Below are positions 45,496 through 61,281 of a stretch of 64,000 bases of DNA, piece after piece (within the stretch, counting starts at the first letter, position 1; every line of letters begins with the position of its first letter). The DNA is taken from assembly GCF_004363075.1 (NCBI RefSeq), contig NZ_SNYN01000002.1:248001-312000 (forward strand), in the 5' to 3' direction. Source of the DNA: Actinorugispora endophytica (GTDB taxonomy: Bacteria > Actinomycetota > Actinomycetes > Streptosporangiales > Streptosporangiaceae). The notes under the pieces were generated by a model. The model was not told where the DNA came from, made no database searches, and worked only from the letters and a program-made list of their open reading frames with translations. The translations under genes were made by a program, and so were the position numbers.

Positions 45496-45696
45496 CTACA
45501 GACGTCCCGACTTCACCTCGGTGAGGAAAGACACCCACGCCTGGGTGGGGAATCCGAGCTGTCCCAGCTCCCGGTTCTGGGTGTCGCGTATCGTCGCGCC
45601 CATCTCCCAGTCCGCCACCTCCACACACGCGGTCTGATCGGCGCTGTAGCTGGACTTTCTCCAGTTCGCCGCGTTCGTTGTGGTCTGTGGCGTCAT
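45496..45696 (-). CDS. DUF397 protein
   Basis: 66 residues with AAGGAC before ATG 45696. The sequence WRKSSYSADQTACVEVAD is the hallmark of DUF397 and the C-terminal W-x2-FL-x-EVK pattern completes the fold. DUF397 proteins are encoded beside XRE regulators with DUF5753 and are considered their antagonists or toxin-like partners. Here the XRE gene ends only 11 bases upstream on the same strand, so they form an operon. Confidence 0.93.
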   Translation of the reverse strand: MTPQTTTNAANWRKSSYSADQTACVEVADWEMGATIRDTQNRELGQLGFPTQAWVSFLTEVKSGRL

Positions 45697-45707
45697 CGCT
45701 TGTCCTT

Positions 45708-46553
45708 CTAGAACTCTTTGCGGATACCGGACAGCAGGTTCCGCAGCATGTCACCGCCGATCCCCACAAGCCGGAGCTGGTTGAAGATCGCTTCGTGGTT
45801 GGCCAGATCCTGAGGGCTGTCCAGGAAGAGGTTACTCCGGTATCCCTCCATGTATACGGTCGAAAGTCCGGATTTGGGCAGTTTCAAGATCATGAAGGTC
45901 GGTATCAGCATCCCGATATGAGCCCCTGCGATATACGGAATCACCTGGAGCGTGACCTTTGGGTGTGTGGACAGCTCTTGAAGGTGAGTGATCTGGTCAC
46001 GCATCACCTCAGCGCCGCCGACCTGCTGGCGGGTTGCTGTCTCGCCCATGATCACCCACAGATCCGGGCCGTCTTCCGAAAACGCCTGATTGATGCGTTC
46101 GCGCCGGACTTCCATCTGGCGCTCAAGGTCATCGGAAGCAATAGTGCTGTTGACCCCTGTGATGATGGCGCGGGCGTAGCGTTCCGTCTGGAGTAAGCCC
46201 GTCACCATGGTGCTGGCGTACGCCTCGATCTCTGTCGCGCTCGCTTCGAGGCCGATGAAGGTGCCGTAGCGCTGTTCTAAGTCGTAGGACTGCCACCAGC
46301 CACGTTTGCCCGCTTGGCGGCGAAGTTGGAGCAGCGCTTCGGCCTCCTGTGCGGGGAGTCCGTAGTGTTTGGCCAGCTGTCGCAGTTCCTTCTCTCGGGG
46401 AACGCGCTGTGCGGCCTCCCAGCGGCTCACTGTCGAGACGGTCACTTCAAGGATCTTGGCTACATCGGTGACGGTGAGGGGGGCTCGTTGTTCCCGTAGC
46501 TTCTGGAGCTCGCGTGCAAGCTGCCATTGGGCAACGGTAGGGGAGGTTGACAT
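45708..46553 (-). CDS. XRE regulator with DUF5753 domain
   Basis: 281 residues. The HTH (about 10-65) includes LTVTDVAKILEVTVSTVSRWE. The DUF5753 domain from about 100 to the end has YASTMVTGLLQTERYARAII, LWVIMGETATRQQVGG and LQVIPYIAGAHIGM. This is a standard actinomycete regulator working with the DUF397 partner downstream. The divergent gap holds the promoter for the HATPase set, the usual neighbour of this pair. Confidence 0.93.
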   Translation of the reverse strand: MSTSPTVAQWQLARELQKLREQRAPLTVTDVAKILEVTVSTVSRWEAAQRVPREKELRQLAKHYGLPAQEAEALLQLRRQAGKRGWWQSYDLEQRYGTFIGLEASATEIEAYASTMVTGLLQTERYARAIITGVNSTIASDDLERQMEVRRERINQAFSEDGPDLWVIMGETATRQQVGGAEVMRDQITHLQELSTHPKVTLQVIPYIAGAHIGMLIPTFMILKLPKSGLSTVYMEGYRSNLFLDSPQDLANHEAIFNQLRLVGIGGDMLRNLLSGIRKEF

Positions 46554-46662
46554 GGGCTTATCCCAACAAATTAGAGTTGCCAGTTAGGCTTGCCAAGTAG
46601 ATGACGCATAGTCATACTCTAACTATGGCTGGAGTGTGTCGCCGCCATATCCCAACGAAAAC

Positions 46663-46696
46663 GGCCCTGACCAGTGAGGACACACCGATCAGGGCC
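46663..46696 (+). terminator. Hairpin in the leader of the HATPase operon
   Basis: GGCCCTGA and TCAGGGCC form an 8-bp stem with an 18-base loop, 35 bases before the small ORF. It could be an attenuator in the leader. Confidence 0.4.
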
Positions 46697-46731
46697 TTAG
46701 TCCCCGACCTGAGAGACCAGGTGGAGACTCG

Positions 46732-46842
46732 ATGAGTAAGGCTACCCCCCGCCGTGCCCCGGGCACGGAACCCCGTCCGCGTAGGGCTTCCCGCGTCCGG
46801 CTGTACGTTCTGGCGCTCGTCCGCGCGGCGGTGACCTCGTGA
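46732..46842 (+). CDS. 36-residue basic peptide upstream of the HATPase gene
   Basis: ATG 46732 has GGTGGAG five bases upstream. The peptide is rich in Arg and Pro in its first half and ends in a short hydrophobic stretch (RLYVLALVRAAVTS). Its TGA overlaps the GTG of the next gene (GTGA), so the two are translationally coupled. It is either a leader peptide controlling expression or a small conserved partner. It is too short to be classified. Confidence 0.55.
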   Translation: MSKATPRRAPGTEPRPRRASRVRLYVLALVRAAVTS

Positions 46843-47300
46843 CCACGTTCGCCACCGCGTTCGTGGGGGCCCCCGAGCAGGTCGGTGCCGCCCGGCGCTG
46901 GCTGTCCGGGGTCCTGGGCCACACCCCCGAGACGCACGTTCCCGACGACGTGCGGGACGCCGCCGCGCTGCTGGTGTCCGAATGCGCCGCCAACGCCATC
47001 CAGCACACCCACAGCGGCCGGCCCGGCCGGTCGTTCTCCCTCTCCGTGCGCGTGGACCCCGGCAGGGTCCGGGTCGAGGCGCGGAACCGCCGCCCCTACG
47101 ACGCCCTCTCCGCGCCCCGGGCCCGCCGGGCCGCCCCCGACGAGGAGAACGGGCGGGGCCTGGCCCTGGTGCGCGCGTTCGCCGCCGAGTGGGGGCCGCT
47201 GGCGCTGGAGCACGGCGTCTTCTTCACCCTCACCTGGCAGCCCGACCCCGGCCCGGACCCCGGCGGCACGCCCCCGGCAGCCCCGGCCCAGGCCGCCTGA
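46839..47300 (+). CDS. HATPase-domain anti-sigma-like ATP-binding protein
   Basis: 153 residues from GTG 46839. It has the Bergerat-fold N box ECAANAIQHTHSG and the G box ENGRGLALVRAFA of the RsbW/SpoIIAB-like family abundant in actinomycetes. There are no other domains. Proteins of this type are found next to DUF397/XRE pairs, as here, and may act as Ser/Thr kinases or ATP-dependent binders. A Pro/Gly-rich tail ends the protein. Confidence 0.9.
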   Translation: MTTFATAFVGAPEQVGAARRWLSGVLGHTPETHVPDDVRDAAALLVSECAANAIQHTHSGRPGRSFSLSVRVDPGRVRVEARNRRPYDALSAPRARRAAPDEENGRGLALVRAFAAEWGPLALEHGVFFTLTWQPDPGPDPGGTPPAAPAQAA

Positions 47301-48367: not shown

Positions 48368-49291
48368 TCAGTGCCCCGTGACGTCCGTTTCGGGGGCGTC
48401 GGCGTCGAGATCATCGCAGGGGCCCGCGCGGCCGGTGGGCGTCCGTGGTGGCCGCTGGCGCCGTCGGGCGAACAGCTGCGGGTACGCGGGGGCGAGCATC
48501 GAGACGAGGACCGCGCCGACGGCGAACGGCGCGGTGCCGAGGGCGAGCAGCGCGAGCGGCGGGGGACCGGCGAAGTCCAGCACCCCGTGGGTGAGGACGA
48601 GTTGGGAGCCGGTCTGGAAGGCGGTGTGGAACCCGACGGTCGTCCAGACCGATCCGGTGGCCAGGCGCAGGTAGCCGAGCCCGATGCCCATCGCGGCGAA
48701 CATCGTGAGGTCGGCGAGGCCGCTGTATCCGCGCAGCAGCAGGGCGAACCCGGTGAAGAGGGCGGACTGCGCGAGGATCGTCCACCAGTCGGGCAGCCGC
48801 TCGCCGAGCGCGCCGGTGACGTAGCCGCGGAAGACGATCTCCTCGGGGACGGCCTCGCTGAGCAGCACGGCGAGTAGCAGGAGGAACGCGGTGCCGGCGA
48901 ACTCCGGCCCCGGGGCGGTCGCGGTGAGCGGCGCGCCGAAGAGCGCGAGGACCGCGAACGCGGTGGAGGCGGGGACGAGCCAGGCCAGCGCGCCGCTCAG
49001 GAGCGCGCGCCAGGCGTCGCGGGGCGGGGTGAGCCCGAAGTGCCGCAGCGGCCGCCGGTGGGCGAAGCGCGCCAGGACGACGATCACCGCGACGGCGGCG
49101 ACGGAGACGGCGGCGCCGCCGACGGCGCGCAGGACGAGTGTCCGGACCTCGGTCACCGGGGCGTCGCCGCCGAGCGCGGTCGCGGTGAGCAGTCCGGCGC
49201 CGAGGACGCCGACGGGAAGGGCGACGCGCAGGAGGAGGGACACGATCCCCGGATCCCGGTGCGGGGCCGCCCGCTCGTCGGCGTGGGTCAT
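48368..49291 (-). CDS. CPBP-family intramembrane metalloprotease
   Basis: 307 residues from ATG 49291 (GGAGGAAG upstream). Several membrane helices and the CPBP motifs are present: EAVPEEIVFRG (EExxxR) around residue 165 and the later FHTAF His motif around 230. The family includes CAAX-type prenyl proteases and bacteriocin-immunity proteins. A charged tail of about 35 residues ends the protein. It is a lone gene convergent with DUF2975. Confidence 0.9.
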   Translation of the reverse strand: MTHADERAAPHRDPGIVSLLLRVALPVGVLGAGLLTATALGGDAPVTEVRTLVLRAVGGAAVSVAAVAVIVVLARFAHRRPLRHFGLTPPRDAWRALLSGALAWLVPASTAFAVLALFGAPLTATAPGPEFAGTAFLLLLAVLLSEAVPEEIVFRGYVTGALGERLPDWWTILAQSALFTGFALLLRGYSGLADLTMFAAMGIGLGYLRLATGSVWTTVGFHTAFQTGSQLVLTHGVLDFAGPPPLALLALGTAPFAVGAVLVSMLAPAYPQLFARRRQRPPRTPTGRAGPCDDLDADAPETDVTGH

Positions 49292-49763
49292 CCGCTTCCT
49301 CCGTCGTGTCGCCGCGCTGTCGGACACATGACGATGCCACGGTCCGCGGCCGCCCGTCACCGCGGCCGGTACGAGAACGGTCACGCCGCCACCTGCCGAC
49401 GGCGGCCGCCGGTGGCGACCCGGCTGCGCGGAATTCCCGAAACGTTTCGGAAGTAGTGGTCCGCTTCTGGTTCCGAAGTCGAGGTTCTCGTTGGCCGAAC
49501 TCGGGGCTGTCTAAATAAATACGCCATTCACCAGGGGAGATGCCTCATTGGGAAAACCCTGGTTGGCATAAAGTTTTCGTATTTTTTCCGAAAACTATTG
49601 ACAGCCCTATGGAGTCGGACGAACACTGTCGGCACCGACAGGGCTCACCCTCCGTCAAACCGGGTCGCTCACCGCGGCTCGCCCCTCCTGCCGTCGGCAG
49701 CCCCGCCGGGTCGTGTCACGCTGCCTGGCCCCCACCAGCCTTCACGGAGAAGGAAGCACGCAC
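49292..49763 (+). promoter_or_regulatory. Xylanase upstream region with LacI-type operator
   Basis: No gene. CGAAACGTTTCG (49438-49449) is a perfect 12-bp dyad of the CGAAA/TTTCG class bound by LacI-family sugar repressors such as xylose- and xylan-responsive ones. Bases 49505-49615 are AT-rich, including TAAATAAATA and TTTTCGTATTTTTTCC, and probably hold the promoter and leader. An AGAAGGAAG ribosome binding site precedes ATG 49764. Confidence 0.5.
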
Positions 49764-50753
49764 ATGAACGACGCCCCCGCCCCTCCGAAGGGCCGCAGAC
49801 GCGGCCGCGCCCTCCTCACCCGCTGCGCCGCCGCCGTCCTGGCGCTGGTCGCGGCCACGCTGATGCTGCCCGGCACCGCCCACGCGGCCATCACCTCCAA
49901 CCAGACCGGAACCAGCAACGGCTACTTCTACTCGTTCTGGACCGACGCCCCCGGAACGGTCTCCATGGAACTGGGGTCCGGCGGCGGCTACAGCACCTCG
50001 TGGCGCGACACCGGGAACTTCGTCGCCGGTACGGGATGGAGGACCGGCGGGCCCCGGACCGTGGACTACTCGGGCAGCTTCAACCCGTCCGGCAACGCGT
50101 ACCTGACCCTCTACGGGTGGACCAGGAACCCGCTCGTGGAGTACTACATCGTCGACAACTGGGGCACCTACCGGCCCACGGGCGAGTACAGGGGCACGGT
50201 CACCACCGACGGCGGCACGTACGACATCTACAAGACGACGCGGGTCAACGCGCCCTCGATCGAGGGCATCCGGACCTTCGACCAGTACTGGAGCGTCCGC
50301 CAGTCGAGGAGGACCGGCGGGACCATCACCTCGGGCAACCACTTCGACGCGTGGGCCCGCCACGGGATGAACCTGGGCGGCCACGACTACATGATCATGG
50401 CGACGGAGGGCTACCAGAGCAGCGGGAACTCCGCCATCACGGTGGGCGGCTCCGGCGGCGGCAACCCCGGAAACCCGGGCAACCCCGGCGGCTGCACCGC
50501 GACGCTGTCCGCGGGGCAGCAGTGGGGCGACCGCTACAACCTCGACGTCTCGGTCAGCGGTTCGAGCGACTGGATCGTGACGATGAACGTGCCGTCCCCG
50601 GCCCGGATCCTGTCCACCTGGAACGTCAGCGCTAGTTACCCGAGCTCCCAGGTGCTGACCGCCCGCCCCAACGGCAACGGCAACAACTGGGGCGCCACCA
50701 TCGAGCACAACGGCAACTGGACCTGGCCCACGGTCTCCTGCAGCGCCAACTGA
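49764..50753 (+). CDS. Secreted endo-1,4-beta-xylanase, GH11 with C-terminal CBM2
   Basis: 329 residues. Signal peptide about 1-41, with an Arg-rich n-region and an AHA cleavage site. GH11 domain 42 to about 227: catalytic nucleophile Glu126 in [10 protein letters not shown] and acid/base Glu215 in [11 protein letters not shown] Gly/Asn/Pro linker (about 228-243) leads to a family 2 carbohydrate-binding module (244-329) with the paired Cys ends and exposed Trp residues. It hydrolyses xylan outside the cell. A CGAAACGTTTCG operator upstream suggests sugar-responsive repression. Confidence 0.97.
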
Positions 50754-50840
50754 CCCCGACCGTGCCCTCTCCCCGCTGATCTTGACCTTTCCGGGGTCTC
50801 AACCGCTTCCGAGACCCCGAAAAGGTCAAGATCACCGCGA
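50751..50840. repeat. Palindromic terminator repeat, copy 1
   Basis: It begins at the xylanase TGA with TGACCCCGACCGTGCCCTC, followed by a stem from 50778 to 50833 (GATCTTGACCTTTCCGGGG arm, one mismatch). The 10-base loop region is AACCGCTTCC. The second copy at 63031-63120 has the same flanks with this loop inverted. Confidence 0.85.
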
Positions 50841-50904
50841 TCTGTCGGCCGGCCCCCGGCCCGATACGACCGCTGACGTAAAGGCCGCCGCTAGGATCTG
50901 TGGG

Positions 50905-52320
50905 GTGACTGACTCCTCGACGCGTACCAGGTTCGCTCCGTCGCCGACCGGCATGTTCCACGTGGGGAACGCCCGGTCGCTGCTGCTGAACTGGGTGGTC
51001 GCGCGACAATCGGGCGGAGCCCTGGTGCTGCGGATCGAGGACACCGACGCCGCCCGGTCCCGCCCCGAGTGGACCGAGGGCATCCTCTCGGCCATGGCCT
51101 GGCTCGGTGTGGACGCCGAGAAGTACGAGGGCCCGTACTCGCAGAGCGACTACCTCGACAAGCACACCGAGGCCGCGCGACGCCTGTTTGAGAAGGGCCT
51201 GGCCTACTACTGCGACTGCACCCGCGAGCAGGTCCAGGAGCGCCGGGACAACCCGAACCTGGGCTATGACGGGTTCTGCCGCGATCGCGACCTGGCCCCC
51301 GCTTCCGGCCGCGCGCTGCGTTTCCGGATTCCCGAGGGCGGCCCGACCGTGATCGAGGACCGGATCCGCGGCCGGGTGGAGTTCCCGCACGAGGCGCTCG
51401 AGGACTTCGTGATCGCCCGTGGCGACGGCTCACCGCTGTTCGTGCTCGCCAACGTGGTCGACGACGTGGAGATGGGCATCACCCACGTCATCCGCGGCGA
51501 GGAGCACCTGTCCAACACCCCCAAGCAGCAGCTGCTGTGGGAGGCGCTCGGTCACACCCCGCCGGTGTGGGCGCACGCCCCGGTGCTGGTCAACGAGAAG
51601 CGGCAGAAGCTGTCCAAGCGCCGCGACAAGGTCGCGATGGAGTCCTACCGGGCCGAGGGCTTCCTGCCCGAGGCCATGGTCAACTACCTGATGCTGCTGG
51701 GCTGGTCCCCCGGCGACGACCGGGAGATCATGCCGTTCGACGCGATGGTCCCGTTGTTCGACCTGGCCGACGTCAACTCCTCACCGGCCTTCTTCGACGA
51801 GAAGAAGCTGCGCGCGTTCAACGGCGAGTACATCCGCGCCCTCGACCCAGAGGATTTCGCCCGGAGGTGCGCCCCCTACCTGCGCGCCGAGAACGTTCCC
51901 TGGAAGGCGGACGACTACGACGAGGCCGTGTTCAGCGCGATCGCGCCGTTGGCCCAGAGCCGTATCGCGGTGCTCGGCGAGATCGTGCCCAACGTCGACT
52001 TCCTTTTCCTGGACGAACCGGTCCTCGACGACAGGAGCTGGACCAAGGCCATGAAGCCGGACGTGGCCGTACCGATGCTCACCGCCGCGCTGGAGCGTTT
52101 TACTGACCAGGCCCTGGCCTGGGAAACTGACCCCCTCAAGAACGCGTTGGAGGAGGCCGGCGCCGCCCAGGGGCTCAAACTGGGCAAGGCTCAGGCCCCG
52201 GTGCGGGTCGCCGTCACCGGCCGCACCGTCGGACTCCCGCTGTTCGAGTCGCTGGAGCTGCTGGGCCGCGACCGCACCGTGCGGCGGCTGCGCTCGGCGT
52301 TGGCCAGGCTGACCGCCTGA
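50905..52320 (+). CDS. gltX: Glutamyl-tRNA synthetase
   Basis: 471 residues from GTG 50905. Class I signature motifs are present: HVGN (19-22) in [15 protein letters not shown] and KLSKRR near 236. DTDAARS and [14 protein letters not shown] are standard GluRS elements. The anticodon-binding C-terminal half is complete. It charges tRNA-Glu, and tRNA-Gln too if the GatCAB route is used. The last 130 bp overlap, tail to tail, the coding region of a diverged GluRS paralogue on the other strand. Confidence 0.97.
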
Positions 52321-53582
52321 CGCGCCGCCGCGATCCTGCCCGGGACGAGCGCCCCGGGCAGGACCGCCAGTAGTTCGTCGATACCAGGACCATCGGTTCG
52401 GCCGGTGAGAACCCATCGGACCGCTTGCGGCGGTGTGTCCTGGGTGGTTCCCCCGGTCCAGGCGTCAAGCCAGCGCAGTGCTTCCTCCGCCTGTTCGGGG
52501 GGCGGTTCGTGATCGATCTGAGGTCGAGTGAGTGCTTGGCAGAGCCGGAGTTGCTGCGGGAGTGGTCTGCGGTAGTGGGTGGCGACCCATTCGATGGTGT
52601 GTGCGGGGCCCGAGGCCCCGTTATCACGTAGCTCGCAGGCGCACACCGCTGGAGACAGTACAGCCGAGATCTTACGGTCCAGGGATGCCAGACGTCGCTC
52701 GTCGAAGCGACTGTCGCCGTGCTTCGGTAGCACATGACAGGCCTGGGAAACCAAGTCGGCAAAGGTTTCCGGAAGCGTCGCCGGAACTGTTCCCAGATAG
52801 GGCTCGGCCAGGAACCAGCGGATTGCAGCCGGCCGAATTCCCGAATCGAGGAGATGGACGATACGGGACGCGCTGCCGTGCTCGTCGAGCAACCGTGGGA
52901 GGAACACATGAGCCGGTGGTGCTCCCCCGGAGGTCAGAGCCCAGTGGAGGCGTACCTGCACAGTGGTGGCGTTTATTTTGTCTCTGCCGCGGACGATCAG
53001 CGTTGTCCGCTGGTCGATGTCGTCGACGACAGTCGCCAGGTGCCACAGCGCGCGCCCGTCAGCGCGAGTCAAGGGAACGAAGTCCTGTGTCGGTGCGTGG
53101 GCCTTCCGAGCGTTCACCATTACCGAGGCTGCCAGTTCCTCGGGGGTGCGTCCGTGTTCGGCCATGAGGCGGTCCACGGCTGCGATATCGAGGCATGGGA
53201 CACCCCGGCGGGAGGCCAGAACCCCTTGCTTCGCGAGTGTTCGCAGTGCCTCGTTGTAGCGGGAGCCGCGCAGGCTTTGCCTGAGATCCTGCTCCCCTGA
53301 GTGGACAGGGATCTGCGCGACCCGTTGGACCTCGCCGAGCAATCGGGCCCGGTGAGCGTCGTCGCTTCGGGCTGCGTCGGTGTCGTCCCACCGGATCCGG
53401 ACCAGAGCCGATGTACCGAGGAATTCTGCGGCGGTGTACGCCAGTAGCGAGGTGAGCAGATGAGTGCGGAGCACACCGACGCGGAACGAGGCGTGGTTGG
53501 GGGCGATCCCCAGCCGGGTGCGGATCTCGCCCGAAGCCGTTGCGGCAACCGTGGGATGGGTGTACCAAGCCCTGTTCGTCAT
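52191..53582 (-). CDS. Diverged glutamyl-tRNA synthetase-like protein lacking the class I catalytic motifs
   Basis: 463 residues from ATG 53582. It aligns by eye with glt[20 protein letters not shown] against [27 protein letters not shown] against EDTDAARS, and [19 protein letters not shown] against [19 protein letters not shown]. The HVGN motif is RVGV here, with the first His lost. The KLSKRR loop is replaced near 236 by [11 protein letters not shown], so normal ATP-dependent activation is doubtful. The start overlaps the next upstream gene by 4 bp. It probably has a repurposed role in the pathway encoded upstream, perhaps binding or using glutamyl-tRNA or an amino-acid adenylate. Confidence 0.82.
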
Positions 53583-54496
53583 CCCGAGTACTCCTCGGGA
53601 TCCAGGAGCCCGCACCAGAGTGGGACGGTGGAGACCGATGAGTGGGGATGGCCGTGCCCGTACCGGCCGCTCTCACCGAACTCCTCACCGTGGTCGGCGC
53701 ACACCACCACGAGCGGCCTCCGCGTCGCCAACCGGGCGAAGAGACGACCGAGTTGGTGGTCGGCCCACTCCAAGGCCCGACGCTGCATGTCCAGAAGATG
53801 ACGGACATCGTCGCGCGAAAGTGGGGGAGGTCCGGCTGGCCATGGGACTTTGGTGTCGTGCAGGCGGTACAAGCGGCGGAGGGCGTCCGAGGTCTGCTCG
53901 GTAAGAGGGCTGTTGGGCGTGGTGTAGGGGATGTGTGTGCTTGAGCAGTTGACGAACAGGAAGAAGTGGTCGGCGTCCGCGCACCTGTCCGCCAGTGTTT
54001 CGACGTGGGTGAGAGGCAGCGTGTCGGCGCGGTCGGCAACACGGCTGTCGAGGTTGGAAAGGGCACGGGAAGAACGTCCGAAGTAGTGAAACTCGGGGAA
54101 CGGTTTCGGCAAGCTGTTGGCGGTGTCGGCAGGATCGAAGAAGGTGACGCCGCCGGCTCCGATGACGCGATGGCCGCGTTCGACGTAGTGCTCCATCAGA
54201 GTGGGACCGGTGAACGTCACCGCGACGGAGCCCCCGGTCGGGCGGGCCGCAGCGGATCGCCAGATCATCTCCACCGGCTTGCCGGACAGGAGGAAGCGCC
54301 CGGAGGCAGGGCGGGGGAGAAAGCCATTGAACAGGGCGGCATGGGCGGGAAGTGTGTAGGTTCCCGGACTCTCGGCTCGGAGCAGGGGGCCGAGCCTGGA
54401 CAGATGAGGGGTGTTCGCGTCCGCCGCGACGTCGTAGCGGCACGAGTCCAGGGTGATGAGTAGGACATCGCGATCGACGAGATCGACGCCTTGCAT
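53579..54496 (-). CDS. STM4013-like sulfatase/alkaline-phosphatase-fold hydrolase
   Basis: 305 residues from ATG 54496. Metal-binding Asp in LLITLDSCRYDVA, the nucleophile-type Thr in GTYTLPAHAALFNGFLP and the second metal site CADHGEEFGESGRYGHGH define the alkaline phosphatase superfamily. The arrangement, including GAGGVTFFDP and a VNCSSTHIPY segment, recalls the STM4013 family of hydrolases found in small clusters. It probably cleaves a phosphate, phosphonate or sulfate ester of a pathway intermediate. It lies between the SAM synthetase (4-bp gap) and the GluRS-like gene (4-bp overlap). Confidence 0.82.
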   Translation of the reverse strand: MQGVDLVDRDVLLITLDSCRYDVAADANTPHLSRLGPLLRAESPGTYTLPAHAALFNGFLPRPASGRFLLSGKPVEMIWRSAAARPTGGSVAVTFTGPTLMEHYVERGHRVIGAGGVTFFDPADTANSLPKPFPEFHYFGRSSRALSNLDSRVADRADTLPLTHVETLADRCADADHFFLFVNCSSTHIPYTTPNSPLTEQTSDALRRLYRLHDTKVPWPAGPPPLSRDDVRHLLDMQRRALEWADHQLGRLFARLATRRPLVVVCADHGEEFGESGRYGHGHPHSSVSTVPLWCGLLDPEEYSG

Positions 54497-54500
54497 CTCC

Positions 54501-55751
54501 TCACACCTCCAGGACCAGGGAAGGGGTACGGAAGCGGTCGATGGGACGCACGGTCAGCAGCTTCTGGGAGAGAAGGTGAAGCTCGCTCAGGCACGCCCCG
54601 GTGATCTCCTCGATGCTCTGCCGCTCTCTGAGGGCCACCGACTGAGCCAGGCGGACACCGACGAAGGAAGGCTCGGTGAGACGATCACCGTTGCGGGAGA
54701 CCAGGACCGTCTCGTTGGGAAGCCCGAGACGGGTGAAGACCTGATCGGCGATACGGGCGGCGACCAGGGTGTAGAGCTTGCCGGTGTGGTGGATCGGATT
54801 CTTTCCCGCGAGCGCCTCCACTCCGGATCCGTAGTTGGCGGAGATGACTCCGTTGGCCTTGTTCCCACGTCCTACGAGCCCGCAGTCGCCCTTGCCGAGA
54901 GAGGTGCCGAACGGCGCAAGGTAGGCGCTCCGGCCGCGGTCCTTGCTGTTGAGCGTCAAGCTCGTCTTCCAGTGATGCCGACGGACGGTGGAGTGGCCGC
55001 TGATGAATGCGTCGATCCGCTGCTTGGCCTGGGTTACCACGTCCGCGTATTGGCTGTGGGAGCTGATCGCCTTCGGATGCACCGGAAGGCACACGGTCGC
55101 GTCGAGGACTGTCTCGGCGCGGGTGAGCATGACTTTCACGTCGGAGCCGACCGCCGGGAACAGTGTGGAGAAGGCTGGACCGTTGATGTGGTTCTCGAGG
55201 TCGATCGCCAGCAGGTCGAGGGGGTCCGCAGGGGCGTAGGCGCTGCAGAACGCGGTGTCATTGGCGTGCGCGCTGGCCTGTGGAATCACGCAGTCCGCCG
55301 CAGTGTCCGGACGATAGAAGGAGACCGGATGATCCGCGCCGACGCCTGCGGTGTTCTCCACCCGTGTCCGTAAGTGCCGCAGGAGGGGGCTACTGCCGGT
55401 GGCACTGTGCAGTACGTCTTCGACGACGGTGCGGAACAACTCCTCGACCGGTATCACCTCACCGCCGACCGAAGGCGTCACCTTGCCGAACAGGTAGACG
55501 CTGACAGGCTTGTGAATCGTATAGCGCCCGAAACCGACCACGGCTTCGGCGCCGACCAGGGCGACCTTGTCGACCCAGTGGTTGGGGACGGCTCCGAACC
55601 GATCGACTCCAAGAAGCGAGTAACGCCGGGAGAACTCCTCGGCGATGAGGTCGGCGAGAGAGTCGGGGTGGCCGATCCCTTTGCGCTCGACCACGTTGAA
55701 ACCGAGGTCTGGCCGGGAGAGATTGAGGCCGCTGCTGAGAGTTGTACGCAT
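54501..55751 (-). CDS. Archaeal-type S-adenosylmethionine synthetase
   Basis: 416 residues from ATG 55751, with AGGAG eight bases upstream. It is not the usual bacterial MetK. VERKGIGHPDS at about 21-31, the central GDCGLVGRGNKANGVI and GKNPIHHTGKLYTLVA follow the archaeal MAT family, which makes SAM from methionine and ATP. A second, unrelated SAM synthetase in a bacterium usually serves a dedicated pathway or accepts a methionine analogue. It is the first gene of the minus-strand operon and is divergent from the HTH-kinase gene. Confidence 0.88.
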   Translation of the reverse strand: MRTTLSSGLNLSRPDLGFNVVERKGIGHPDSLADLIAEEFSRRYSLLGVDRFGAVPNHWVDKVALVGAEAVVGFGRYTIHKPVSVYLFGKVTPSVGGEVIPVEELFRTVVEDVLHSATGSSPLLRHLRTRVENTAGVGADHPVSFYRPDTAADCVIPQASAHANDTAFCSAYAPADPLDLLAIDLENHINGPAFSTLFPAVGSDVKVMLTRAETVLDATVCLPVHPKAISSHSQYADVVTQAKQRIDAFISGHSTVRRHHWKTSLTLNSKDRGRSAYLAPFGTSLGKGDCGLVGRGNKANGVISANYGSGVEALAGKNPIHHTGKLYTLVAARIADQVFTRLGLPNETVLVSRNGDRLTEPSFVGVRLAQSVALRERQSIEEITGACLSELHLLSQKLLTVRPIDRFRTPSLVLEV

Positions 55752-55952
55752 GCACAGGCTCCTGGGGGTGGGAGAGTCCCGAGGCCTCGAAGAGGCGGAG
55801 GGAATGCGCTGGTCGTGTGTGATCCATGACACCTTCGATGGGGTGGAAGCGGTATCACGTGGGCTTTCCGCTCTTGTTCAGTGAGGGGCCTCGTGATTTT
55901 TCAACATCCGTTTACACATGGTCCCGCGACGTGCAGACTTAGGGTCGCGTTC

Positions 55953-56990
55953 ATGGCGGAGCGGGGACGGGCGGACGGCGACGTGGCGAGAGCTCGCACG
56001 GGATGGCGGCCGGAGAAGCTCAGGGAGCAGCGTGAAGCACACGGCCTGACTCTCGAGTCGGCTGGGGAGACTCTGCGCGCGGTGGCCGAGGCAGCAGGAG
56101 TCACGGTCCCGGCGGCGAACTTCCAGACGCTGTGGCAGCACGAGCAGGGAGAGGTCTACCCGGGGCCGCACTATCGTCGGGCCTACTGCCTTCTCTACGC
56201 GATGAGCGAGCCAGAGCTCGGCTTTCGCAACGCGCTGCCCGGTGAGCAGACACCCATGGATTTCCTGCCAATCCGGTCGGGGAACGGAGACCGCTCCAAG
56301 GCGGTGGAGGATGTGCTGTCTCGGATCGCGTTCAATGACGTGGACGCGAACGGACGGGAACTGCGTGAACGGATCCTGCGCGCCTGGAGTCATCGCCAGG
56401 CCGGAGGTGATCTGACCGGCAGCCCGCTACTGGTGATCATCGGAGGTTACGCGGGCAGTGGTAAGTCGGAGTTCGGCCGGTTTCTGTCCCAGCTCACCGG
56501 ATGGCCCGTCCTGGACAAGGACCCCGTCACCCGCCCGCTGGTCGAGCAGTTGCTCATCGCCTTGGGAAGCGATGCGCATGACCGGCACACGGACCTCTAC
56601 TGGACGAAAGTCCGCCCACTGGAGTACCGGTGTCTGCTGGAAGCGGCCTATGCCAACCTGGACTGCGGCATCAGCACGGTACTGACGGCTCCGTTCATCG
56701 CCGAGCTGACGGACCCCGGCTGGATGCGCCGGATGGCCAACCGGTTCGAGGCTCGCGGGGTGAAGGTGTCCGTGGTCTGGATCGACTGCGACCTGGAGAC
56801 GATGCGTGAGTACATCGGGTTCCGGTCCGCCGCGCGTGACTCCTGGAAACTGCAGAACTGGGAGGACTACGCCGCCACCGTTGACATCGGCCTACGTCCG
56901 GCGGTCCCGCACCTGGTCGTCGACAACCGGATGGGATCGGCCGTCTCCCTCACCGATCAGGTTCAGCGGATGCTCGGAGCGGTCTCCTGA
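55953..56990 (+). CDS. HTH domain fused to a P-loop kinase
   Basis: 345 residues from ATG 55953. Residues about 15-85 resemble an XRE-like HTH (EKLREQREAHGLTLESAGET, NFQTLWQHEQGEVYPG). After a linker comes a P-loop domain: Walker A GGYAGSGKSEFGRF near 165-178, VLDKDPVTRPLVEQ, and WIDCDLETMREYI, as in zeta-toxin/gluconate-kinase/AAA_33-like small-molecule kinases. It may sense a metabolite by phosphorylating it and control the divergent operon. Its TGA overlaps the next ATG by one base. Confidence 0.8.
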   Translation: MAERGRADGDVARARTGWRPEKLREQREAHGLTLESAGETLRAVAEAAGVTVPAANFQTLWQHEQGEVYPGPHYRRAYCLLYAMSEPELGFRNALPGEQTPMDFLPIRSGNGDRSKAVEDVLSRIAFNDVDANGRELRERILRAWSHRQAGGDLTGSPLLVIIGGYAGSGKSEFGRFLSQLTGWPVLDKDPVTRPLVEQLLIALGSDAHDRHTDLYWTKVRPLEYRCLLEAAYANLDCGISTVLTAPFIAELTDPGWMRRMANRFEARGVKVSVVWIDCDLETMREYIGFRSAARDSWKLQNWEDYAATVDIGLRPAVPHLVVDNRMGSAVSLTDQVQRMLGAVS

Positions 56991-57544
56991 TGCGAAGGGG
57001 TGTCGTGCTGTACGGGCCGCCAGCCGCGGGCAAGGACACGATTACCGCCGCGCTGTCCGCTCTGGATACCCGGTACGCGCTCTTCCGCCGTTTGAAGATC
57101 GGTTCGGGAAGGACAACGGGATACCGTATCGGCTCCGCGAGAGTTCACGCGGAGTTGGTGGAATCCGACGCGGTGATCTACTCCAATGAGCGCTACGGCA
57201 ACGTCTATGTCATTGACCGGCCAGAGCTCGACGCGGTGTTCCGCACGGGAGGCATCCCGGTTCTACACCTTGGCCAGCTTCGCGGGGTTCAAGCCGTGGT
57301 CGAGGGCTACCCGGTTCGATGGTGCACAGTGCTTCTGCGGTGCCCGCGTGAGGTCACCCGGATACGCTCCATCGAGCGCGGGGACACGGATACCCCGGCA
57401 AGACTGGCAGCCTGGGAAGCCACGGAGGAAGACCTCGCCGCTCATCCTGACACCGTATGGGACCTGAGACTGCATACAAACGCTCTTTCCCCCGATGAGG
57501 CGGCCAAAGCGATCGACAGCCACCTCGGCCACCTCCGGTTCTAG
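56990..57544 (+). CDS. Guanylate-kinase-like P-loop nucleotide kinase
   Basis: 184 residues. Walker A YGPPAAGKDT is at residues 8-17; the order SGRTTGYR, YSNERYGNVYVIDR and VLLRCPREVTRIRSIERGD fits the guanylate-kinase/PhnN-like fold (lid Arg residues, YGN motif). PhnN phosphorylates ribose 1,5-bisphosphate in phosphonate metabolism; either substrate class is possible. It is coupled to the HTH-kinase gene (TGATG) and convergent with the oxidoreductase gene. Confidence 0.8.
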   Translation: MRRGVVLYGPPAAGKDTITAALSALDTRYALFRRLKIGSGRTTGYRIGSARVHAELVESDAVIYSNERYGNVYVIDRPELDAVFRTGGIPVLHLGQLRGVQAVVEGYPVRWCTVLLRCPREVTRIRSIERGDTDTPARLAAWEATEEDLAAHPDTVWDLRLHTNALSPDEAAKAIDSHLGHLRF

Positions 57545-57607
57545 CGTTCCGCGTCTGTTGTCCGTTCGCAGAGGGCCCGGTATCGGTATCTGGCCGAACT
57601 TCGCCGG

Positions 57608-58456
57608 TCAAATACCTGTTCGCAACGCGGCGATCGCCTGTGTGAGCGACAGATCCGCCTGGTCCTTGCACTCCTCCCAGTTCGAGAGCGCGGAGGCTGC
57701 CGCACGCATCACCTCGTCGGGTAGAGAGGCCTCAGCCAGCAGGTCCGCTGCTTCCAAGAGCTCTGGCCCCCATCTCCAGGCGCGTGCCGCGGTTATGGGG
57801 ATGTAATCGGTTTCGGCCAGGTAGCTGCCGGAGCGTTTCCGGGCGACATCGAGAAGTTCGGCCTCCACCCCGTGCTCGGCAGCCAGCGCGTAGGCGAGAG
57901 CGGCGAGAACACGTGAGGCCTTCTGGAAACTGGAGTAGGACAGTTTGAGGGCCGATGCCTGCCCTGGCAGGTCTCCGACCACCAGTGGTTTCACGTCCGT
58001 TCCTGAGAAAAGTGCCTTCACTGAGGCCGTCTTCACCGGATCACCGGACAGATAGAGCGAGGGTCGTTTGCCGTTGGCCGGAGGAGAGCCGATCACAGCC
58101 CCGTCAACCACCGTCGTGGTTGGCAGAAGGCGACTGACGGAGCGGACCTTCTCCGGTGTGACCGCGTTCGCCTCCAGGTAGACATCGCCGCTGAAACCGT
58201 GTGCGGCCACTTTCCGGGCGACGTCTTCGGCTGCGGCGGGTGGACACAGCGAGATGACCACATCGGCCTGGCCGAGCAGTGAGGAGAAGTCCGTGCCGGG
58301 GAGTAGGCCGGCCTCACGGGCGCGGAGCCGTGTCCTTTCGCTGCGGCCCTCGACGCACCACAGCACAGTGTGGCCCCGTCTCCGTAGCTGTGCTCCGACT
58401 GCGGCTCCCATGCTTCCGGGGTGCAGCAGTCCGATGGTCGGTTCAGGGGGACTCAT
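57608..58456 (-). CDS. NAD(P)-dependent oxidoreductase, 6-phosphogluconate-dehydrogenase-like with DUF1932
   Basis: 282 residues from ATG 58456. The N-terminal Rossmann motif is IGLLHPGSMGAAVGAQL, then VVISLCPPAAAEDVA and YLEANAVTPEK, as in beta-hydroxyacid dehydrogenases. The C-terminal helical domain LKLSYSSFQKASRVLAAL resembles DUF1932, in which the conserved Lys is catalytic. It probably oxidises or reduces a hydroxyacid-like intermediate. It starts 17 bases after the HAD gene stop on the same strand. Confidence 0.85.
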   Translation of the reverse strand: MSPPEPTIGLLHPGSMGAAVGAQLRRRGHTVLWCVEGRSERTRLRAREAGLLPGTDFSSLLGQADVVISLCPPAAAEDVARKVAAHGFSGDVYLEANAVTPEKVRSVSRLLPTTTVVDGAVIGSPPANGKRPSLYLSGDPVKTASVKALFSGTDVKPLVVGDLPGQASALKLSYSSFQKASRVLAALAYALAAEHGVEAELLDVARKRSGSYLAETDYIPITAARAWRWGPELLEAADLLAEASLPDEVMRAAASALSNWEECKDQADLSLTQAIAALRTGI

Positions 58457-58472
58457 TCGACCTTCCAACGGG

Positions 58473-59123
58473 CTATGCGCTTGCGGAGAGAAGAGTGCTG
58501 ATGGCGGACCGGGTATCGGCTGCGATTCGGTCCGGAACGGTGTGTTTCCCGGGCCAGGAGCGGCCATGACTGACCCAGACGGTCCGCAGGCCCGAAGCGC
58601 ATCCACCCCGGATGTCATTCACCGGTCCGTCTCCGACCATCCAGCCGGGGCTTCTTCCCCTGGCTTCAAGACTGCGCATGGCCGTATGGAAGGCTTCGAC
58701 GGCGGGCTTGCGGATTCCCGTCTCCCCGGAGACGGCCACCGCGTCCACGAGGTGGGAGAGCCCCGCCGAACGCAGTTTCGCGCGCTGGATGTCCGAGGCT
58801 CCGTTGGTGAGCACACCTACGGCCCACCCCGCGCTCCGTAGTTCTCCCAGCCCATCGAGAACGCCCGGGAAACAGGCGACCGACCGTGCCATTATCCGGC
58901 GATAGTCCGTCCACAGGTCCTGCTGGGCCATCGCGAGTCCGTACCGCTGGGACAGGGGCGCGAAGTGTTCAGGGGTGGCCCGGTCTTCAAGAGCGGCGAG
59001 TAGCCACGTCCGGGCGCCGGTGTTCAGACCATGTAGGTCACAGAAGGCCGCGACGCTTGTATCAAGGGCGGTTCTTCGGTCGATAAGGGTGTCGTCCAGG
59101 TCGAACAGTGCTGCGGGTCGCAT
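58473..59123 (-). CDS. HAD-family phosphatase
   Basis: 216 residues. HAD motif I ALFDLDDTLIDRR is at residues 5-17, motif II VLTNGAS near 110, a Lys in GIRKPAVEAFH, and motif IV MVGDGPVNDIRGG near 165. The helical cap is of the subclass I (N-acetylneuraminate/phosphoglycolate phosphatase) type. It removes phosphate from a small molecule. With the SAM synthetase, kinases and hydrolase nearby it fits a pathway running through phosphorylated intermediates. Confidence 0.9.
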   Translation of the reverse strand: MRPAALFDLDDTLIDRRTALDTSVAAFCDLHGLNTGARTWLLAALEDRATPEHFAPLSQRYGLAMAQQDLWTDYRRIMARSVACFPGVLDGLGELRSAGWAVGVLTNGASDIQRAKLRSAGLSHLVDAVAVSGETGIRKPAVEAFHTAMRSLEARGRSPGWMVGDGPVNDIRGGCASGLRTVWVSHGRSWPGKHTVPDRIAADTRSAISTLLSASA

Positions 59124-59460
59124 CCGAGGTCTCCTGAAATGTGTTCGCTTCCTGATGGTAGGGGCTCGGTATCCCGGGGCTGTGAGAGCCCGCCATCAGC
59201 CGCTGTCGCGCCCTTGCTTCTCAAACCACCGAGGATGAACTTCGCGTTCTTCTCAAACGTGTCAAAAATACTCTTTCGAAGTGTTTCCTTCATCTTCAAT
59301 ATGCAAACGGTATGAAGGTCAACTTGTATGTTGACTCAGTTTTCGATTAATGGTCAACTGTGAGTGCTGTACGTGATTGTCGCGAGACAGCGCCGGTGTG
59401 CGCTCCCGTTCGGGAGCAGGCGGCCGATGCCGCCCCTCCGGCCGACGTGAGAAGGCGAAC
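59124..59460 (+). promoter_or_regulatory. AT-rich promoter region of the Gabija-like operon with GTCAAC dyad
   Basis: No gene. GTCAAC and GTTGAC (59318-59335) form a dyad with a 6-base spacer, and a further GTCAAC half-site lies at 59353-59358. The lower GC here contrasts with flanking genes, as is common at the edge of acquired defence genes. Confidence 0.45.
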
Positions 59461-61281
59461 GTGTATCTCCAGCAGCTTCGTATCAACGGCTTCCGGTCAC
59501 TGGCCGACGCCGTCATCGACCTCCAACCGGGCGTGACGGTCCTGGTGGGGGAGAACAACGCAGGCAAGTCCAACGTCATGGACGCGGTCCGGCTCCTCAC
59601 CGCCCCTCTGGACGGCAAGCGCGATCTCTACTTCAGGGCAGAGGACCTCCATCGAGACGGATGCCCGGAAGAGGCGCACCATGACGGGTGTTCCCGGGAC
59701 ATCCGGATCTCGGGGCGCTATACGTCCGCTGACGAAGGCGACCTCGCTGTCTACAGCCAGGCGTTGAACGCGGACCTGAAGTCCCTCGGATACCACCTCA
59801 CCTACACACCGCCGTCCTTCGGCTCGCAACGAGGAGAGAGCACCTGGCGGGCCGGTGACACGGACACCACGGACCGCGATCCCGAACCGGCCGCCCGCGG
59901 GCGCATCCGCCACCTGTACCTGCCGCCTCTTCGTGACGCCCAGCGCGAACTCGCCTCCCATACGGGAAGCCGCATTCGATACGTCGTGGAGAGCCTGCTG
60001 AAGGAGCAGTCGGACCGGGACGAGTTCGTGGCCCAGGTGAGAACCGGTTTCAGTGAGGTTGAGAAGACTCCCCGACTGGCCGCCGCGGTGCAGGCCGTCC
60101 AAGGGCAACTCGACCTGCTCACCGCTGGAGCCCACGCGCAGAAGGCGGGGATCGGGTTCGCGGACGCCACCGTCCACTCGGTGACCCGGGCACTGCGCCT
60201 GCGTTTGGACGAGGCCGGACTGAAACCGCAGGACCTCGCCCAGAGCGGCCTGGGCTACGCCAACCTGCTGTTCATGGCGACCGTCTTCATCCAGCTCCAG
60301 AAGGCCGCCGAAGCCGACCTCACCCTGCTGCTGGTGGAGGAGCCCGAAGCCCACCTGCACCCGCAGCTCCAGACGATCCTCATGGGATACCTGGAGGAGG
60401 AGGCCGCCCGGAGCCGCGAGCGCCGGGTGGAGGGAGAGGCGTGGCTCGGCCGGATCCAGATCGTGGTCACCACCCACTCGCCGCACATCGCCACCGCTGT
60501 CGCCCCGGAGAACCTGGTGGTACTCCAACGGCACAAGCACGCGGGCACGGTCGCTCCCAGGGAGAACCGGACACGGGCCATCGCCGTCCGGAACCTCGGC
60601 CTGGACGCGAAGACCCTCAACAAGGTCCGGCGCTACCTCAACGCCACCCGCAGCACCATGCTCTTCGGTCCCCGGGTCCTCCTCGTCGAGGGCATCGGCG
60701 AGGCGATCCTCGCCCCCGCCTTCGCCCAGCGGCTCTTCACGGGAGAGCGCCTGCAGCGTTTCCGGGGCACCGCCGTGATCCCCATCGACGGCGTCGATTT
60801 CAAGCCGTACCTCCACGTGCTGTTGGCCGCTGACAGCAACGGCAACCGGATCGCGCAGCGGGTGGCGGTCATCACCGACGGGGACTTCCACGGCCTGGAC
60901 GAGAAAAGGAAGACCGACCGCCCCGGAGACCTCCGTAAGCAGATCAGCGACCTGGGCGCCGCTGACGCGGCCGAGGTCTTCTCCAACGAGACCACGCTGG
61001 AGCCCGAACTGCTGAACGCCGACGAACGCAATGTCCCGCTGTTGGAGGAGGCGTGGAAGAACCAGCGGTCAGGAAAAAAGGGGGACCGGGATTGGAGGTT
61101 CCTTCGCTCCGACTCCTGGGAGGGGGAGACGGAGAGCCTTCCGAAGGGCTGGGCGGAGAAGATCACCGAGTCGCGGGAGCGGAAGCTCCGTTCCTGTTCG
61201 GCGCGTGCGAAATCCGCAAGGGCGACTTCGTCCAGGAGCTTCTGGCGGCCTCGGCGGCGCGGGGCGAGGACGAGCAGCTGA
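59461..61281 (+). CDS. gajA: GajA-like OLD-family ATP-dependent nuclease, frame disrupted near the 3' end
   Basis: 606 residues as read, from GTG 59461 (AAGG upstream). The ABC-type ATPase half has Walker A GENNAGKS (30-37) and Walker B LLVEEPEAHLHPQ near 291-303, then VTTHSPHIATA. The TOPRIM half has LLVEGIGEA near 410 and VITDGDFHGLD near 472. This is the OLD/GajA layout. The last ~30 codons (after about 61188) are Arg/Ser-rich nonsense, while the -1 frame carries a proper C-terminus to 61346. Either a one-base deletion or sequencing error is present, or frameshifting is used. The partner helicase gene starts at 61336. Confidence 0.85.
   Translation: MYLQQLRINGFRSLADAVIDLQPGVTVLVGENNAGKSNVMDAVRLLTAPLDGKRDLYFRAEDLHRDGCPEEAHHDGCSRDIRISGRYTSADEGDLAVYSQALNADLKSLGYHLTYTPPSFGSQRGESTWRAGDTDTTDRDPEPAARGRIRHLYLPPLRDAQRELASHTGSRIRYVVESLLKEQSDRDEFVAQVRTGFSEVEKTPRLAAAVQAVQGQLDLLTAGAHAQKAGIGFADATVHSVTRALRLRLDEAGLKPQDLAQSGLGYANLLFMATVFIQLQKAAEADLTLLLVEEPEAHLHPQLQTILMGYLEEEAARSRERRVEGEAWLGRIQIVVTTHSPHIATAVAPENLVVLQRHKHAGTVAPRENRTRAIAVRNLGLDAKTLNKVRRYLNATRSTMLFGPRVLLVEGIGEAILAPAFAQRLFTGERLQRFRGTAVIPIDGVDFKPYLHVLLAADSNGNRIAQRVAVITDGDFHGLDEKRKTDRPGDLRKQISDLGAADAAEVFSNETTLEPELLNADERNVPLLEEAWKNQRSGKKGDRDWRFLRSDSWEGETESLPKGWAEKITESRERKLRSCSARAKSARATSSRSFWRPRRRGARTSS

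Follow-up and report, generated by a model that had tools for sequence, protein, structure and literature searches.

Enzymes derived from aminoacyl-tRNA synthetases (aaRSs) that act as transferases, and second aaRS copies that provide immunity, are already known for alanine, isoleucine, and serine. In ascamycin biosynthesis, AcmF is a truncated protein resembling alanyl-tRNA synthetase (AlaRS) from which most of the ATP-binding residues are gone. It uses Ala-tRNA produced by AcmD, a canonical AlaRS encoded within the ascamycin cluster, and its acceptor is a nucleoside sulfamate (PMC12945691). SbzA, from the SB-203208 cluster, resembles isoleucyl-tRNA synthetase (IleRS) and uses Ile-tRNA, and the product of this cluster inhibits the matching aaRS (PMC6331615). 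For albomycin, a second seryl-tRNA synthetase (SerRS), AbmK, apparently supplies seryl-adenylate to the synthetase-type enzyme AbmF in addition to providing immunity (PMC9032320). The ascamycin article contains no mention of glutamyl-tRNA synthetase (GluRS) or glutamyl-tRNA (PMC12945691), and glutamate is missing from the passage of the SB-203208 article that enumerates which amino acids these enzymes transfer (PMC6331615). In the open-access literature searched, we found neither a glutamate-specific aaRS-derived transferase nor a second-copy immune GluRS. Glu-tRNA is used by LanB dehydratases. Here, we describe a locus encoding both a GluRS-derived protein, designated GluL, and a second GluRS, designated GltX2, in a 64,000-nucleotide stretch of Actinorugispora endophytica DNA (hereafter referred to as the window). 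The host genome comprises 5.25 Mb and is the sole representative of its genus among the genomes compared.

In the window, gltX2 faces a three-gene operon encoding an archaeal-type methionine adenosyltransferase (MAT), a hydrolase, and GluL. The features of this unit are as follows.

50905-52320, + strand: gltX2, complete second glutamyl-tRNA synthetase (TIGR00464, 425 bits; trees), tail-to-tail with the operon
50968-50970, + strand: codon for the Asn at the fourth position of the GltX2 HIGH motif (residue 22; alignment)
52191-52320, unstranded: 130-nt overlap of the convergent coding ends of gltX2 and GluL (coordinates)
52191-53582, - strand: GluL, GluRS-derived, with the HIGH His changed to Arg (residue 34) and the KMSKS loop deleted near residue 236
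53579-54496, - strand: STM4013-like hydrolase of the alkaline phosphatase superfamily (Sulfatase clan; family scans)
54501-55751, - strand: archaeal-type MAT, with PNHWVDK replacing HHNTDK (Pfam, alignment)

The gltX2 gene is a second copy, since the other gltX of the source genome is located on contig C3. Within the operon, MAT and hydrolase genes are separated by 4 bases, and the start codon of GluL overlaps the hydrolase stop codon as ATGA. Full-length GluL was found in 13 of 297 genomes of the family, the window included. In all 12 of the other loci, the genes for MAT, hydrolase, and GluL (the trio) follow each other in this order on the same strand and face a complete convergent gltX. The overlap between gltX and GluL amounts to 130 nt in 11 of the 13 loci and to 40 nt in the remaining two, those of genomes G030 and G106, where the GluL match extends beyond the GluL stop codon into the strand opposite gltX. 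The conserved unit is composed of these four genes, and the four genes flanking it in the window lie outside. An earlier note on this DNA had outlined a seven-gene cluster at 52191-59123. All seven open reading frames (ORFs) were recovered at or near these positions in the ORF list and by family scans, and GluL, hydrolase, and MAT do belong together, but the fourth member, the GluRS ORF at 50905-52320 on the + strand, had been left out. Its description of the locus as an unfamiliar one for a small metabolite, in which an aaRS paralogue occurs together with a second MAT of archaeal type and in which polyketide synthase, nonribosomal peptide synthetase, and precursor peptide genes are missing, is supported.

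Because the layout of GluL and gltX2 equals the logic of AcmF/AcmD, SbzA, and AbmF/AbmK, the unit may encode a Glu-tRNA-dependent pathway to an adenosine-containing inhibitor of GluRS, with GltX2 serving as both supplier and immune target. We infer the substrates, product, target, and resistance of this pathway and assign the reading as a whole a probability of about 0.5. Gene content and linkage, loss of the ATP motifs from GluL, the altered MAT pocket, and the difference in GltX2 together with its continued selection are established here. In the proposed scheme, MAT would move the 5'-adenosyl group of ATP onto a substrate other than ordinary methionine, yielding an adenosine-containing acceptor, onto which GluL would place the glutamyl group from Glu-tRNA. 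Glu-AMP released by GltX2 is a less likely source of this group. The hydrolase might then strip a phosphate-type group as the product matures or is released, which is the weakest step of the scheme. The product would mimic glutamyl-adenylate and inhibit GluRS, while GltX2 would supply Glu-tRNA and, through a changed residue in its adenylate site, keep the producer alive.

GluL matches the GluRS profile (E = 3.9e-13), and its family scores lie below the cutoffs for a functional enzyme of either kind, with 64 versus 277 bits for GluQRS and 52 versus 290 bits for gltX_bact. Its structure was modeled with a predicted local distance difference test score (pLDDT) of 86 and a predicted template modeling score of 0.82. 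The best 28 rows of a structure search were all GluRS or GluQRS (Z of 22.9 to 28.1), and comparison with 7k86 gave a Z of 28.1 and a root mean square deviation of 3.4 over 382 aligned residues. The predicted fold is that of a full-length GluRS, with the anticodon-side part kept. In an alignment of 13 rows, GluL proteins were 49 to 60% identical to the window protein, and many residues were invariant. After merging with 76 GltX sequences, 38 of 200 GltX-invariant positions were seen to be kept in GluL, and at 61 another conserved state, gaps included, was present. The change of the HIGH His to Arg and the deletion of the KMSKS residues were common to all 13 proteins. Invariant Arg residues of GluL are aligned with R5 and R205 of Thermus thermophilus GluRS, which are glutamate ligands. 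Since HIGH and KMSKS are lost and these Arg residues are invariant, GluL can probably still bind glutamate, perhaps also tRNA, yet seems unable to activate glutamate with ATP.

The MAT of the unit is an archaeal-type enzyme, with 240 versus 27 bits for PF01941 (AdoMet_Synthase). In Thermococcus kodakarensis MAT, the methionine carboxylate is bound by the loop residues His62 and Asn64 together with Asn161 (PMC3853416). The unit MATs of all 13 loci resemble this enzyme in their fold and in the adenosyl-transfer residues expected of a MAT that makes S-adenosylmethionine (SAM), having kept the catalytic His, the two ribose-binding Asp residues, and the adenine-stacking Tyr (PMC3853416). They differ from it in the methionine pocket. 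All 13 carry PNHWVDK, in which both loop ligands are replaced (His62 by Asn and Asn64 by Trp; residues 57 and 59 of the window protein), whereas the third ligand, Asn161, is apparently kept.

The best family match of the hydrolase is STM4013/SEN3800 (NCBIfam NF038075), with which it shares membership in the Sulfatase clan. It departs from this family in its score, which at 137.4 bits is below the cutoff of 250, and in belonging to a conserved unit without a radical SAM partner. Thr presumably occupies the usual nucleophile position, as judged from an alignment read by motif. STM4013-like hydrolases that are 34.6 to 35.8% identical to that of the window were also noticed on two Agrobacterium Ti plasmids, where the operon partners are GTP-cyclohydrolase-II-like, HprK-like, MFS, and PLD-like genes (names based partly on sequence reading). 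This operon was considered as a guide to the unit and dropped, as none of the neighboring genes there was matched by the profiles for MAT and GluL.

Archaeal-type MATs were found in 10 of 345 genomes of the class and in 34 of 297 genomes of the family. Neighborhoods were read for those MAT loci that do not belong to the trio and for two additional plasmid loci, and were searched by BLAST for GluRS and SerRS only; the linkage counts are raw counts. The labels type A, B, and C are our own, and gene names for type B were carried over from the annotated locus L035. In L180 and L185, MAT lies outside the ORF call and was read by tblastn, and in L188 it is split over two ORFs. SerRS was encoded at 12 MAT loci (L105, L161 to L164, and L170 to L176), 10 of which also encode a 349-amino-acid protein. 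A PDB profile (E = 2.8e-4) and hhalign (91.9%, E = 7.1e-7) detected an AlaRS-like motif 3 in this protein. Its likeness to AlaRS rests on profile comparison, since Pfam matched one of eight members with an E value of 0.37. These loci are probably the SerRS counterpart of the GluL/gltX2 system. Genes for a phosphotransferase, a phosphatase, and a glycosyltransferase are present in most of them. The 10 type B loci, one of them plasmid borne, contain differing combinations of glycosyltransferase, Gfo-type oxidoreductase, carbamoyltransferase, and Nudix genes; neither a GluRS nor a SerRS match was present in any of the 10. Type C is represented by L177 (G255), L185 (G074), and L188 (G027), each of which combines radical SAM, MAT, ATP-grasp-like (by sequence reading), and extra gltX genes. 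The remaining archaeal-type MAT loci were either too short or of mixed content.

One clade of the MAT tree unites the trio MATs of all 13 loci with those of L177, L188, and L179. These MATs carry NHW or NHS where others have HH, and the same was read by tblastn for L185, which for this reason was placed by motif and is not in the tree. All 12 SerRS-type and all 10 type B MATs have HHN. An NH(W/S) MAT is accompanied by an extra gltX in 16 of 17 loci, and as these represent two operon types, the pairing persists while the rest of the gene set differs.

The type C operons contain no GluL-like gene, so use of Glu-tRNA is not general among these loci. That type C manages without GluL also bears on a different role for this protein, namely that GltX2 is an immune target and GluL is independent of tRNA, either holding an intermediate resembling glutamyl-adenylate or acting as a noncatalytic binding or regulatory protein. 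Loss of the ATP motifs would suit such a role, as would the absence of tRNA genes. Neither tRNA genes (ARAGORN) nor known RNAs (Rfam at gathering level, run on 49000-60500) were detected in the window, and the 12 related loci contain no tRNA-Glu, other tRNAs being at least 2.7 kb away. The many invariant residues of GluL, conserved at 49 to 60% identity to the window protein, and the anticodon-side part kept in the model argue against such a role, and we regard a tRNA-independent GluL as quite unlikely.

Turning to GltX2, 19 genomes carry copies at least 80% identical to it, in 11 cases alongside an intact trio and in eight without one (G085, G087, G110, G219, G247, G250, G285, and G293, in all of which gltX2 is intact). 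The gltX of the two other trio genomes, G030 and G106, is nearer to their own housekeeping genes in trees. The fourth position of the HIGH motif is N in all 19 copies of the gltX2 clade, whether linked to the trio or not, and in the three type C proteins, and is S in the G030/G106 pair, so that N or S occurs in 16 of 16 MAT-linked GluRSs. It is G in 49 and S in two of 51 other chromosomal GltX copies, which were taken from among the 278 genomes that gave a match and are presumed to be housekeeping; one of the genomes used, G236, has two copies. The ratio of nonsynonymous to synonymous substitution rates (dN/dS) of gltX2 was 0.07 between the trio-less genomes G219 and G285, compared with 0.09 and 0.12 in two comparisons between trio-bearing genomes, and ranged from 0.07 to 0.15 over all pairs computed; the copies of G085 and G110 are identical and therefore uninformative. 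The low ratio between trio-less copies indicates that selection continues to act on the spare GluRS. As is expected of a self-resistance aaRS, gltX2 is an extra copy located beside an operon, one that we infer to be biosynthetic. A role in immunity is further suggested by type C, where a GluRS with the same HIGH residue occurs without GluL.

A role in supply is suggested by plasmids of Nocardia sp. NBC_01388 (L157), Kitasatospora sp. NBC_01300 (L158), and Nocardia sp. NBC_00511 (L160). In all three loci, a gltX presumed to be an extra copy is arranged tail-to-tail with an operon containing a glutamyl-tRNA-reductase-like gene, a likeness detected by Pfam in L157 and through BLAST relatives in the other two. 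Genes for a flavin adenine dinucleotide enzyme and a nucleotidyltransferase-type protein are also present, as are two radical SAM genes, and the operon likely encodes a Glu-tRNA-consuming pathway. The HIGH position in question is G in four of four plasmid gltX genes, none of which adjoins MAT. The fourth, on a plasmid of Streptomyces sp. NBC_01216 (L159), lies tail-to-tail with HprK-related, adenosylhomocysteinase-like/Gfo fusion, APH kinase, and TIM-barrel genes. By analogy with the reductase-like operons, GltX2 could be a supplier only, serving a Glu-tRNA-consuming pathway whose product, a signal or a cofactor-like compound, is not aimed at GluRS. The persistence of intact gltX2 in eight genomes without the operon does not fit this explanation, nor does the extra GluRS of type C, and we consider it unlikely.

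Several observations weigh against the proposed pathway to a GluRS inhibitor, among them the lack of a GluL-like gene in type C. N is found at the fourth HIGH position in ordinary Burkholderia GluRSs and S in the two comparison copies mentioned above, so the change need not mean resistance. The trees support an independent origin of the GluRS lineages only in part. With the shared-change columns masked, forcing the main gltX2 clade and type C together lowered the log-likelihood by 67 and was disfavored in the approximately unbiased (AU) test (P = 0.028; groups named after the tree was seen). Forcing the main clade and the G030/G106 pair into one gave an AU P value of 0.31, and a separate origin of this pair is not established; its shorter GluL overlap of 40 nt instead of 130 nt would fit a separate juxtaposition. 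The Asn-to-Trp change alone is also present in MATs of Paraburkholderia and Parageobacillus. The pairing of altered MAT with GluRS is not exclusive, since L179 has an altered MAT but lacks a GluRS within the 20 kb around it, and the SerRS-type loci L105 (G285) and L170 (G288) have HHN MATs yet adjoin a complete or partial gltX2. The structure model of the hydrolase is poor (pLDDT of 49). Finally, SbzA is a transferase despite intact HIGH and KMSKS motifs.

The unit is patchily distributed. A named scan with two peptide patterns located it at nine loci, restricted to Nocardiopsis, Streptomonospora, and Murinocardiopsis, and a class-wide search at an E value of 1e-20 returned GluL in two of 345 genomes, the source genome and G030. 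Distant relatives of GluL may be missed by these two patterns and this cutoff. A search of the plasmid collection for GluL gave only ordinary gltX. In G131, G174, and G262, neither gltX2 nor GluL is intact, each being decayed or cut. In G247, the contig ends shortly beyond a GluL remnant, and no other GluL match was listed there. G288 was counted as neither intact nor lost, as its hydrolase gene, the C-terminal part of MAT (L192), and a fragment of gltX2 (L170) lie at contig ends. Near the unit in G106 (L047), and as a trace in G030 (L048), regularly repeated units that give repetitive ORFs on translation were noticed, which are perhaps CRISPR arrays. Instead of a metabolite pathway, a system concerned with tRNA-Glu or translation stress, such as one for modifying tRNA or a toxin-antidote pair, could also produce patchy presence with decayed copies and retained gltX2. 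MAT and the hydrolase, however, come from small-molecule enzyme families, and other archaeal-type MAT loci are surrounded by glycosyltransferase, phosphotransferase, carbamoyltransferase, and oxidoreductase genes, which makes a stress system very unlikely.

The genes flanking the operon in the window, all outside the conserved unit, are as follows.

55881-57544, + strand: pair of an XRE-like/AAA_33 kinase and a CPT-like kinase (Pfam, neighborhoods)
57608-58456, - strand: DUF1932 oxidoreductase (Pfam DUF1932/NAD-binding, neighborhoods)
58473-59123, - strand: HAD hydrolase (Pfam, neighborhoods)

The helix-turn-helix (HTH) of the AAA_33 kinase was not called by Pfam. Using tblastn at an E value of 1e-5 on stretches of 14 to 20 kb, no homologue of the HTH-kinase, the CPT-like kinase, or the HAD hydrolase was found in any of the 12 related loci. 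The oxidoreductase has a homologue in one (L042) and also beside two decayed copies (L049 and L053). In 14 of 14 other loci that a search for the pair returned, all short, the two kinases form a separate adjacent pair without the genes of the unit. The gene divergent from MAT is, by sequence reading, an XRE-TPR regulator in seven of the 12 related loci, not the HTH-kinase, and in six a Nudix gene stands behind it. Relatives of these genes occur near some other archaeal-type MATs, including L163 (both genes), L162, and L172. The earlier note had suggested that the seven genes could serve a single pathway with the HTH-kinase as its metabolite sensor and had proposed co-occurrence of the seven families as the check. 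Three of the seven (MAT, hydrolase, and GluL) do co-occur in all related loci; the others do not, and neither the seven-gene pathway nor the sensor survives the comparison. Tight gene spacing in the window is what speaks for a cluster of this extent, which in view of the missing kinases and HAD hydrolase is hardly credible. Elsewhere in the window, a set of DUF397-like, XRE, and anti-sigma-type ATPase genes at 45496-47300 (read from sequence) is of a kind common in actinomycetes, with relatives of its members in 9, 11, and 7 of 21 stretches compared, the window included.

A broader proposal, which we put forward tentatively and hold to be somewhat unlikely, is that NH(W/S) MATs make no SAM and would instead adenosylate a glutamate-like nucleophile, giving a stable mimic of glutamyl-adenylate. 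Altered MAT and modified GluRS would then mark an unrecognized family of GluRS inhibitors, finished either by a Glu-tRNA-dependent transferase or, in type C, by a radical-SAM/ATP-grasp set, with a parallel SerRS branch employing the AlaRS-derived protein. The narrower reading of the unit itself predicts that a natural GluRS inhibitor exists, that it has a matching resistance gene, and that the archaeal MAT scaffold serves a new purpose. The three-gene operon is small enough to be cloned whole, and an altered MAT beside a second GluRS can serve as a search key for further loci.

Compared with the described systems, GluL has three marks of enzymes of the AcmF and SbzA kind. Its descent from an aaRS is apparent from profile and from a GluRS fold at a Z of 25 to 28, its amino acid activation site is changed in all 13 proteins, and, as with AcmD and AbmK, an intact aaRS for the same amino acid is encoded alongside, gltX2 adjoining in all 13 loci. 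AcmF and AcmD likewise combine an aaRS-like enzyme with a depleted ATP site and an intact aaRS (PMC12945691). AcmF is, however, derived from the class II enzyme AlaRS and moves alanine, whereas GluL derives from the class I enzyme GluRS, and MAT and an STM4013-like hydrolase, both part of the GluL unit, are not mentioned in the available text on ascamycin (PMC12945691). SbzA is derived from IleRS and has HIGH and KMSKS, both of which GluL has lost; it is similar to GluL in being class I aaRS-like, and it acts as an aminoacyl-tRNA-dependent transferase (PMC6331615). Albomycin involves seryl chemistry and a thionucleoside, and the portion of the article available does not mention an archaeal-type MAT, but its AbmF and AbmK resemble the present pair in uniting a synthetase-type condensing enzyme with a second aaRS of dual role (PMC9032320). 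As for AbmK, supply and immunity may both hold for GltX2.

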